Shown in pieces: positions 698 through 14,019 of a stretch of DNA of 20,527 nt. A program made the translations under genes and the position numbers. The notes beneath the pieces are model-generated. The model had not been told where the DNA came from. It saw only the letters and a list, made by a program, of their open reading frames with translations, and searched no databases. This stretch comes from a virus. How positions within the stretch are numbered: the stretch's first letter is position 1; each line of letters begins with the position of its first letter. The stretch lies in IMG/VR virus record IMGVR_UViG_3300032770_000102, positions 1-20,527 of that record; one strand, written 5' to 3'.

Positions 698-940
698 ATG
701 CTGACGCCAATAGCAAAAAGAATTCTAATTAAACCCGTGGAACAAAAACACGGCGTTCTCATTCTTGCACATCAAAAGCCAACGCAATTTACCGTGATCG
801 CAGTAGGTGATGAAGTTACCAAGGTAGCTCCTGGTAATGTCATATACCTCGAAAAGCATTATGGCGTCGAAATTGAATATCAGGATGATAAATATCTTGT
901 TATCGATGAAGCAAGTATCCTAGCTAAGATAGTTGACTAA
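698..940 (+). CDS. GroES-like co-chaperonin (Cpn10)
   Basis: The 80-residue product aligns by eye along the whole GroES fold. It opens with PIAKRILIKPVEQ (GroES RPLHDRVIVKR). HGVLIL follows in place of the mobile-loop GGIVL tripeptide that docks on GroEL, then TVIAVGDEV (GEVLAVG), APGNVIYLEKHYGVE (VGDIVIFNDGYGVK), and finally YLVIDEASILAKI (VLIMSESDILAIV). Bacterial GroES is about 95 residues. The missing residues fall at the roof hairpin between the AVG strand and the VGD turn, as in phage T4 gp31. By analogy it would replace host GroES on the host GroEL ring to fold the phage capsid protein. No GroEL gene is visible. The AGGAG ahead of the ATG has a rather long spacing of 11 nt. Confidence 0.85.
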   Translation: MLTPIAKRILIKPVEQKHGVLILAHQKPTQFTVIAVGDEVTKVAPGNVIYLEKHYGVEIEYQDDKYLVIDEASILAKIVD

Positions 941-3817: not shown

Positions 3818-3972
3818 TTGAAAGATTCAGCGCCTGTTTAGCGCTCATTTGTCTAAAGTGCGCCAAGTTTTTTCGAGCTTTAGGAATTCCTGGATGGCGA
3901 CTTTTTCTTTCGATTGGTGATTGGTTATATTACTGTTATCACGATAGGCCAGATAAAAATAAGGACATGTAG
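3814..3972 (+). CDS. Small hydrophobic protein overlapping terL stop and a tRNA
   Basis: This 52-codon frame starts at the ATG of the ATGA that ends terL. It encodes MIERFSACLALICLKCAKFF, then RALGIPGWRLFLSIGDWLYY and a charged tail CYHDRPDKNKDM. The sequence has two hydrophobic stretches (about residues 6-19 and 28-42) broken by RALGIPGWR, so a membrane-associated small protein is possible. Its TAG stop lies inside the first ten bases of the tRNA gene that follows. Support is the coupling geometry, the full-length open frame filling an otherwise empty gap, and the plausible composition. No family is recognised, and there is no independent ribosome site. Confidence 0.45.
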   Translation: MIERFSACLALICLKCAKFFRALGIPGWRLFLSIGDWLYYCYHDRPDKNKDM

Positions 3973-4035
3973 CTCAGTTGGTAGAGAGGAGATTTCATCA
4001 TTCTCAGGTCGGTGGTTCGAGTCCATCCATGTCCT
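3963..4035 (+). tRNA. tRNA with CAU anticodon (Met or Ile2)
   Basis: A full 73-nt cloverleaf can be folded: acceptor GGACATG/CATGTCC (7 of 7), D-stem GCTC/GAGA with one G.A mismatch, D-loop AGTTGGTA with the GG pair, and anticodon arm GAGAT-TTCATCA-TTCTC (CAT after T33, one T.T mismatch at the loop end). The variable loop is AGGTC and the T-arm is GGTGG-TTCGAGT-CCATC. The G1-C72 pair argues against an initiator tRNA. The discriminator is T, unusual for Met or Ile2, and CCA is not encoded. Whether the CAU is read as Met or, after lysidine modification, as Ile cannot be told from sequence. Confidence 0.9.
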
Positions 4036-4064
4036 GTATAAGTAAATTAATTTAAGCAGGTATT

Positions 4065-12342: not shown

Positions 12343-12651
12343 ATGTCAGTATCAATTGCTTCGTTGCCTCCGCAAATACAACAGCGGTACAACGCAAAAT
12401 TGCTATCGACTCCAGAGCACAACTTGATTCACCAGTTATTTGCCACTCCGGTGGAACTCCCTGATAATCAAGGATTTATAGATAGACAGTCTCGTTATGA
12501 CAGACTTGATCTATTTGAAGTACCTCTAGACGATGGCCAGAATAACCCGCCACCACAACAACTTAACCGAGTTGATGTGGACTGTCGTGTAAGGGTCTAC
12601 GCCACTTACATCGTGCTTACCAGGCAGGTCACAATTACTAACGAAGACCCT
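12343..12651 (+). CDS. Major capsid protein, exon 1 (N4 gp56-like)
   Basis: This exon encodes the first 103 residues of the capsid protein: MSVSIASLPPQIQQRYNAKL, LIHQLFATPVELPDNQGFID, SRYDRLDLFEVPLDDGQNNP and RVRVYATYIVLTRQVTITNE. The segment PPPQQLNRVDVDCRVRVYAT is the family's Q-L-...VTA strand before a hydrophobic turn. After GAC CCT (12646-12651) the frame runs into intron sequence (KMYGVYKPEIIDLELLAA and a TAA at 12706-12708), so the unspliced product would be a truncated 121-residue protein. Splicing joins the codon CCT to GTA at 13381, giving NEDP-VLNSAAARLGQ, a continuous family sequence. AAGGGAAC lies just ahead of the ATG. Confidence 0.88.
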
Positions 12652-13380
12652 AAAATGTATGGGGTCTATAAACCAGAGATAATCGACTTGGAACTCCTCG
12701 CCGCTTAAGCGGACGGAAGACAAGGCGCAAGTGAGTATAAGGATTTAACGGGATGATTACGAAATCGGGAATTAATAGATCGAAGTTCAAGATAGCACTG
12801 ATAGCGAATGTCATGTGTTTCTTGAGAGATTTCTTTCTTTTGAAGCCTACGATGAGGAACGAAGGTGCTTCTCATTCTCATCATGATTTCGCATTGTCTT
12901 CGCTTAATCACCAAGTAAGGAAGAATTTTGGGAAGAAGAGCATCCAAAGTAGTTCCAGTAATCTGAGAACTATAACAACTGCGATTTACAAGAGATTTTC
13001 GTGTAGGTCGTTCTTGTTGAATATTGGTCGCTCCAGCTTTTTCACGAATCCAGTCTATGAGGGATTTCTCGTTATTAGAAATCTTGATATAGGTGTGATA
13101 GTTGAGAAGATTTTTGGTAGCTTTGGTTCTAAAGAGACCAATGAAAAAACAGCCTTCTCCATCAATAATTCCTGCAAGGTAAGCGAGTTCTGTATCAGTC
13201 ATAACACCTCATTGTTAATGACTAAACAGTATGCAATAAATCCGAATATTTGTACAGCGTGAACGACTAAATTCACTGGCCCCGAAAGGGGATGCGATAG
13301 TCTGAACTCTATGGAGACATAGAGAGGTCGATCCGAAGAGGTTGGCCCGCCTAGAAATAGGTCATGAAAGTAACAGAAAG
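12652..13380 (+). ncRNA. Group I intron in the capsid gene
   Basis: P1: exon GACCCT (12646-12651) pairs with GGGGTC (12661-12666), with the U.G pair at the splice site. P10: exon 2 GTAC pairs with intron GTAT (12657-12660). P7: GACTA (13265-13269, in CGACTAAAT) pairs with TAGTC (13298-13302). P8: CCCC-GAAA-GGGG (13280-13291). P9: CTCTATG-GAGA-CATAGAG (13307-13324). Another hairpin CCTA-GAAA-TAGG (13350-13361) precedes the 3' end, which is a G at 13380. A CCGC-TTAA-GCGG hairpin (12701-12712) is a P5/P6-region candidate; P3/P4 were not resolved by hand. The 729 nt are self-splicing in design; activity is not shown. Confidence 0.92.
12705..13202 (-). CDS. LAGLIDADG homing endonuclease, antisense within the intron
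   Basis: This 165-residue protein starts MTDTELAYLAGIIDGEGCFF (LAGIIDGEG at residues 9-17, the catalytic LAGLIDADG helix). Hydrophobic and charged segments such as NYHTYIKISNNEKSLIDWIR and LPKILPYLVIKRRQCEIMMR are typical of single-motif enzymes that act as homodimers. It is read opposite to the host gene and intron. A GAGGTG site stands just ahead of the ATG. Because expression cannot come from the capsid transcript, it needs its own minus-strand promoter, which I cannot identify. The TAA stop lies in the TTAA loop of the intron hairpin at 12701-12712. It would cut intronless alleles at the insertion site. Confidence 0.9.
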   Translation of the reverse strand: MTDTELAYLAGIIDGEGCFFIGLFRTKATKNLLNYHTYIKISNNEKSLIDWIREKAGATNIQQERPTRKSLVNRSCYSSQITGTTLDALLPKILPYLVIKRRQCEIMMRMRSTFVPHRRLQKKEISQETHDIRYQCYLELRSINSRFRNHPVKSLYSLAPCLPSA

Positions 13381-14019
13381 GTACTTAACTCTGCTGCGGC
13401 TCGTCTTGGTCAATCACTCCGTGAAACCCAAGATGCCCTACAGAGAGATAACTTGGAAAGCTCTGCTTCCATTATCAACTGCGTAGGCGGAAGTAACGGC
13501 GACATCCCAACAGAGATGACAATTTCTGACGTGGATGACGTTTTCACAGTTCTTCAAAACAATAGCGGTGAGTACATCACCAACATTGTTGAAGCCGAGC
13601 TACGCTTCGGTACATCACCAATCGGCGATGCCTACGGTTGCATGCTCACAACTCGAATGATTCCAGTTCTTTATAACATGACTGGTTTTATCAAGAAGTT
13701 CCAGTATCCGAACATATCTCAAACACTCAGCGTTGAGATTGGCGGAGCTAACAACGTACGTTTCTTTGCTTCTGAGCAAGGTTCTGTCACACCGAATGCT
13801 TCTATGCTCGGTAATGATATTGCCAACTGCTTCGTTAGCGCGAAAGAAGGTTACAAAGTCGTTTGGCAAGCTGGCGGAAAGGCAAGATTTATCTACCTTC
13901 CTCCTGGATATAACAACGACCCATGCATGCTCCGGCATACAGCAGGCTGTTCCTTCTATCAAGGGCAATGTATCACTAACGATTTGTGGGTGCAAAACCT
14001 ACGATCAAGCGGAATTTAG
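13381..14019 (+). CDS. Major capsid protein, exon 2 (N4 gp56-like)
   Basis: This exon supplies residues 104-315 of the spliced capsid protein, starting VLNSAAARLGQSLRETQDAL. That is the helix that follows the EDP motif in N4 gp56-like major capsid proteins. It continues with the E-loop-like QRDNLESSASIINCVGGSNG, then MTISDVDDVFTVLQNNSGEY, FRFG-like and MIPVLYNMTGFIKKFQYPN, and ends with a Gly-rich IYLPPGYNNDPC region. The frame before 13381 (a TTG at 13342) reads through the intron tail and is not real protein. The spliced total of 315 residues is normal for the family. It forms the HK97-fold capsid shell assembled on the scaffold. Confidence 0.88.
   Translation, partial: VLNSAAARLGQSLRETQDALQRDNLESSASIINCVGGSNGDIPTEMTISDVDDVFTVLQNNSGEYITNIVEAELRFGTSPIGDAYGCMLTTRMIPVLYNMTGFIKKFQYPNISQTLSVEIGGANNVRFFASEQGSVTPNASMLGNDIANCFVSAKEGYKVVWQAGGKARFIYLPPGYNNDPCMLRHTAGCSFYQGQCITNDLWVQNLRSSGI

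Follow-up and report, generated by a model that had tools for sequence, protein, structure and literature searches.

Our analysis supports an authentic group I intron in the major capsid gene of the window (the whole 20,527-nt stretch of viral DNA analysed here), with its junction at 12651/13381. The locus is very probably explained as a whole by a self-splicing capsid intron, an endonuclease gene on the opposite strand and a degron-like tail on the unspliced product. Relatives extend this reading. It is likely that capsid introns of the family carry in-frame ssrA-like degrons, and that some have shrunk to 28-48-nt 'satellites', each reduced to a P1/P10 guide, a terminal G and, in many cases, a degron, which are spliced by the core of a downstream intron, so that one ribozyme would serve two introns.

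Table 1. Positions of the capsid exons, intron elements and other features of the window, and related loci with short inserts
Feature	Positions	Strand	Basis
GroES-like co-chaperonin (Cpn10), phage-encoded	698-937	+	E 1.7e-10
tRNA-Met (CAT) gene	3962-4036	+	
HNH/AP2-type endonuclease ORF, amid plus-strand phage genes	6191-6694	-	
ORF with zinc-finger-like cysteines, amid plus-strand phage genes	10984-11433	-	
Capsid exon 1, 103 codons	12343-12651	+	Joined ORF; amino acid identity up to 99-100% with uninterrupted relatives
P1 hairpin AGACCCU/GGGGUCU, U.G at 5' splice site	12645-12651/12661-12667	+	Same geometry in relatives
Group I intron, 729 nt, last base omega-G 13380	12652-13380	+	Zero-gap empty sites, core covariation, covariance model
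In-frame exon 1 extension KMYGVYKPEIIDLELLAA and stop; ssrA-like C-terminus, Ala-Ala-stop codons in P5 loop	12652-12708	+	Translation, family comparison
P10	12657-12660 (in P1 loop)/13381-13384	+	Pairing with 3' exon
P3 5' strand CCAGAGA, partner 13272-13279	12673-12679	+	P3 covariation, 81 introns
P4 CUUG 12687-12690/CAAG 12721-12724, around P5 12690-12720	12687-12724	+	Both-sided P4 changes in relatives
Putative LAGLIDADG homing endonuclease ORF, 165 aa, antisense to capsid gene	12705-13202	-	PF00961, phrog_5046 and I-MsoI matches
P6 5' strand GCGC, partner 13257-13260; endonuclease gene inside P6	12725-12728	+	Single-sequence reading
P7 GACUA 13265-13269/UAGUC 13298-13302; P3 3' strand 13272-13279; P8 13280-13291	13265-13302	+	Covariation, covariance model
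P9 13307-13324, P9.1 13326-13347, P9.2 13350-13361	13307-13361	+	Structure reading, covariance model
Capsid exon 2	13381-14019	+	Joined ORF, PHROGs match
Mini-insert loci (capsid genes of relatives): L011, L031, L033, L062, L124, L140, L161, L203-L209, L085, L086, L092, L094, L103, L107, L127, L138, L142, L151, L165, L168, L176, L193, L234, L239, L243, L292			

The split capsid gene and its group I intron

The uninterrupted frame of the capsid ORF runs from 12343 past 12651 to a TAA stop at 12706-12708. Removing 12652-13380 and joining 12651 to 13381 gives a single 315-aa protein (...TNEDP/VLNSAAARLGQ...), of which residues 8-310 match the phrog_1357 'major head protein' (E 8e-18). The preliminary description had placed the end of the frame at 12708 and its resumption at 13381, had predicted the fusion NEDP-VLNSAAARLGQ and had called the gene the major capsid gene. 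The joined ORF and its PHROGs match bear out each of these points. AlphaFold confidence for 22 intronless capsid proteins was too low to use (mean pLDDT 31), so capsid identity rests on PHROGs.

Comparison with intronless relatives had been proposed as a check on the junction. In most of the 80 IMG/VR loci that encode close exon 2 relatives, the two exon sequences meet precisely at 12651/13381 with no intervening nucleotide, and about 60 related phage capsid genes are intact exactly at this position. These empty alleles confirm that the junction can be read to the base. A minority of the 80 loci have an insertion at or near the window junction. Interrupted loci use at least five insertion sites within the capsid gene: CAGGTT/ACA, GAGGAT/CCN, GACCCT/GTN, CAGTCGCT/TAGAGAA and GCAACGT/, the last of these in L205 and L207. 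Separately, the podovirus P22-type coat gene of L212 (MW202674.1), which is annotated as two CDS, is split by a window-family intron, and its exon 1 CDS ends in DAYFLLAA-stop.

The window is a metagenomic contig, and the interruption could be an assembly artefact or mark a dead gene. We regard the chance of this as negligible: related introns, with both flanking exons intact, recur at this site and at nearby ones in independent contigs, and the intron core covaries.

The elements that had been listed for the intron, namely P1 with U.G, P10, P7, P8 with a GAAA loop, P9 with a GAGA loop and a terminal G at 13380, are all present. A normal P2 has no room, as P3 stands directly after P1, and P4 encloses P5. 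By eye, P4 is changed on both strands in relatives (GGUG/CACU in L062, L102 and L189; CAUG/CAUG in L093). Across 81 family introns, P3 pairing is 85.6%, compared with 57.5% after shuffling (maximum 63.2%), and P7 pairing is 99.8%, compared with 91.3%. We abandoned a first P3 candidate, AGTGAGT around 12730 paired to ATTCACT around 13271, when the family alignment placed P3 right after P1 and the tag in P5.

The preliminary description had named a covariance-model search as a check and had held that failure to find a group I core would speak against the intron. The outcome was mixed. Rfam scans of the window and of the local region showed no group I match even at a threshold of E = 10, which formally counts against the intron, whereas a family model built from 20 relatives, with the window left out, matches the window at 13262-13375 (E = 3.2e-27). 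Rfam likewise found no group I match in five relatives, including two whose introns are compact. The family model also matches Rfam-recognised Staphylococcus and Aeromonas phage introns (E 0.002-0.009) in overlapping places, and BLAST with the window core reaches phage introns of this Rfam-recognised kind in their P7-P9 region, including one that carries the annotation Intron_gpI. Because the relatives are missed too, because the family model and BLAST form a bridge to Rfam-positive introns, and because P3 and P7 covary, we treat the Rfam result as a false negative. On these comparisons, the non-detection is probably explained by divergence of the window intron family. Searching plasmids for the intron yielded no useful result.

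We compared the window intron with known phage introns. Staphylococcus phage 110 and the terminase gene of Aeromonas phage 2L372D have introns whose P7-P9 region is detected, in overlapping places, by RF00028 and by the family model alike. Unlike these introns, the window intron scores below RF00028 detection, and unlike the window they have no Ala-Ala-stop tail. The mycobacteriophages LittleE (major capsid gene) and BAKA (minor tail gene) have group I-like introns whose splicing was shown by RT-PCR in infected cells; in both, the exon ends in U and the intron in G, and LittleE has a LAGLIDADG ORF on the bottom strand (PMC3706429). These introns resemble the window intron in their capsid or tail gene host, their U/G ends, their in-frame tail (...AAA-stop) and the antisense LAGLIDADG ORF of LittleE. 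They differ from the window intron in that the window-family covariance model does not match them. A capsid gene had been described as a demanding site for an intron. This is less unusual than implied, given the proven capsid intron of LittleE (PMC3706429) and the presence of up to four introns in one capsid gene of the phages studied here. In L102, L186, L088 and L100, a single capsid gene is interrupted at three or four separate sites by group I introns.

An antisense LAGLIDADG gene

The group I reading of the preliminary description was well founded but incomplete, as it had omitted both the antisense endonuclease gene and the degron-like tail. The antisense ORF matches PF00961 at 25.1 bits (curated cut-off 23.1; E 3.4e-5) and phrog_5046 (E 2.6e-22), and its closest solved protein is I-MsoI (E 2.3e-11). 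The C-terminal coding part of the ORF overlaps P5 and P6 on the opposite strand. LAGLIDADG endonucleases of the I-MsoI/I-CvuI type are, like the window ORF, proteins of about 165 aa. The window ORF differs from this comparison in lying antisense to its intron, and it is a putative endonuclease identified by sequence match.

Among family introns with large enough inserts, 43/45 detected LAGLIDADG ORFs are antisense. A search for a conserved promoter of the antisense gene yielded only a weak -10-like excess (10/33, with 3.9 expected and a shuffle maximum also of 10). Endonuclease genes in antisense orientation have been described in nuclear rDNA introns (PMC3679873) and in the LittleE capsid intron (PMC3706429). 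The combination of a group I intron in a capsid gene with an antisense LAGLIDADG gene thus has a precedent.

At the sequence level, we consider the intron, its splice junction, its core and the antisense gene established. In the mechanism that we propose, guanosine would attack after U12651 in P1, and exon 1 would then attack after G13380. The joined mRNA would encode the full capsid protein. The LAGLIDADG endonuclease expressed from the other strand would probably spread the intron into empty alleles. Within this mechanism, splicing in vivo and homing are inferences.

An ssrA-like tail on the unspliced reading frame

When exon 1 is read into the window intron, the product is ...NEDP/KMYGVYKPEIIDLELLAA-stop, with DLELLAA as its final residues. 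The exon frame stays open for 18 more codons; it crosses P1 and P3 and reaches the P5 loop, which contains the end of the tail. The tail has a C-terminal Leu-Ala-Ala in common with the tmRNA (ssrA) tag. Unlike that tag, which is added by tmRNA, tails of this kind are encoded in cis within an intron or insert; the window tail is a putative degron.

In the first set of interrupted relatives, nearly all have Ala-Ala-stop at the first stop. We then counted such tails in 55 introns, a set dominated by a scan with a pattern near the 3' end. This count is the fairer statistic, since the pattern of the second scan includes bases of the P5 start. Ala-Ala-stop tails occur in the exon frame of 27/55 introns and in the other two frames of 0/55 and 1/55. 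As many of these introns are related, the 55 are not independent events; in an enlarged, clustered set the tail is present in 43/104 clusters, against 0 and 1 in the other frames. The background is low, with 3.8% of ORFs of at least 150 codons in the same loci ending in Ala-Ala. Across the family, these comparisons establish a frame-specific excess of Ala-Ala-stop.

Tails of relatives have YALAA, FALAA or VLAA ends. About half of the family tails lack the Ala-Ala end; many of these end in AYGIS-stop, VVAFS-stop or similar, and some introns have an immediate stop. This second class of tails (AYGIS, AYGVS, VVAFS, EVAIS or similar, before the stop) is found in L105, L146, L149, L178, L084, L176, L190, L317 and others. 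The Ala-Ala-stop tail is absent from three other phage introns that we checked. The LittleE and BAKA introns are read through in frame to ...VATAAA-stop and ...LAAAAA-stop, respectively. A term search of the paper describing them (PMC3706429) did not find discussion of the read-through tail.

If the intron were an ordinary mobile group I intron, the tail could be incidental, a mere stop before the core set by the RNA structure of P5. The window stop codon does lie within a palindromic P5a helix, CCGCUUAAGCGG, and the many relatives with other tails or immediate stops fit this explanation. However, the excess is specific to the exon frame. The two Ala codons cover all four synonyms and the stop occurs in all three forms, indicating that amino acids rather than RNA letters are conserved. 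The tag also stands in unrelated structural positions. Some tags lie in the P1 loop (L045, L148, L261) and others in the P5 loop or past P5; in L212 the tag occupies an additional segment ahead of P3, and elsewhere it is read from the next exon in a shifted frame. Tag-bearing introns occur in phases 0, 1 and 2. Finally, the tag is lost where an upstream insert already supplies one, as at the GAGGAT/CC site, where ALAA-stop is kept in 4/4 introns without an upstream mini-insert and in 0/11 with one. We consider an incidental tail unlikely.

In our preferred reading, the tail acts as a degron. Translation of phage RNA begins before its synthesis is complete, so some ribosomes would enter the intron ahead of splicing. 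Their unspliced reading would end at ...DLELLAA-stop in the P5 loop. Because its C-terminus resembles the ssrA tag recognised by ClpXP, the resulting 103-residue capsid stub should be destroyed by host proteases such as ClpXP, instead of poisoning assembly. Our search of open-access literature did not find a description of such an intron-encoded tag, and degradation of the stub through its ssrA-like tail is therefore proposed by analogy.

Short inserts without a catalytic core in related capsid genes

Capsid genes of relatives, though not that of the window, have second insertions of 28-48 nt (mini-inserts) with a P1/P10 guide and a terminal G. They have no catalytic core of their own, and their length leaves no space for P3-P7. 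Since they lack the core and would work only like a substrate half, we do not file them as group I introns.

Tblastn gap analysis detected a mini-insert in 17 loci, 16 of which also have an intron-size insert. In the seventeenth, presumably L206, the mini-insert is followed by a group I intron of which only the 5' half lies before the end of the locus. Loci without an intron-size insert comprise 160 without a mini-insert and 1 with one (Fisher p = 4.5e-5, indicative since the loci are related). An exon-anchored search brought the collection to 27 unique mini-inserts at four sites in three capsid families, the one in L205 coming from a separate site analysis. Each of the 27 follows a U, forms a P1 of 6 bp or more with U.G at the site, and has G as its last base. 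Because U.G and the terminal G were required criteria of this search, independent support comes from the gap analysis and from P10 covariation. P10 is paired at 119/135 positions, compared with a maximum of 116 in 20,000 within-site permutations. At two sites, the wobble base of a Thr codon is Watson-Crick paired with the guide in 16/16 cases, with all four combinations in use.

Every mini-insert examined lies directly 5' of a full group I intron or of its 5' half, and removing both insert and intron gives a gap-free capsid protein in the six loci tested. In L205 and L207, the exon between the mini-insert and the full intron is only about 25 nt long. Most mini-insert tails end in Ala-Ala-stop; the shortest inserts, at FYG/T, do not. 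In L062, L107, L138, L140, L168 and L203, CAA-stop or RLAA-stop is read in the shifted frame of the next exon. An apparent mini-insert in L028/L029 proved to be a chance reverse-strand match and was left out.

The mini-inserts might instead be skipped by translational bypassing, as in T4 gene 60, where ribosomes pass a short gap with a take-off hairpin and an early stop codon. Their length of 28-48 nt, hairpin and early stop codon resemble this case. However, the pre-landing codon (e.g. ATG or TTG) differs from the take-off codon (GAT), and bypassing was rejected for want of a matching landing codon. The inserts moreover bear features of group I introns: U.G marks the 5' site, G is the last base, and P10 covaries across all four wobble bases. 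A group I intron lies directly 3' of every one. We judge bypassing very improbable. The simplest reading of the sequences is that the mini-inserts are probably spliced by the core of the downstream group I intron.

Euglena group III introns are short, lack a catalytic core, derive from group II introns and are thought to be spliced with outside help. They are the nearest conceptual parallel to the mini-inserts, which are likewise short, coreless and apparently helped from elsewhere. In contrast to the group II-derived Euglena introns, the mini-inserts are group I-like and much shorter.

Within the open-access literature that we searched, the in-frame degron and the coreless introns appear to be new. 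If our reading is true, a self-splicing intron reduces the harm it causes in a strongly expressed gene by labelling the faulty product for degradation. This would be a quality-control role for an intron, one undescribed in the open-access papers searched. The spliceosome has been proposed to have arisen by way of degenerate introns that rely on a core located elsewhere, and to our knowledge none of group I type has been seen so far. The coreless inserts, if they are spliced as we propose, would be the group I counterpart of such degenerate introns, dependent on a core elsewhere.
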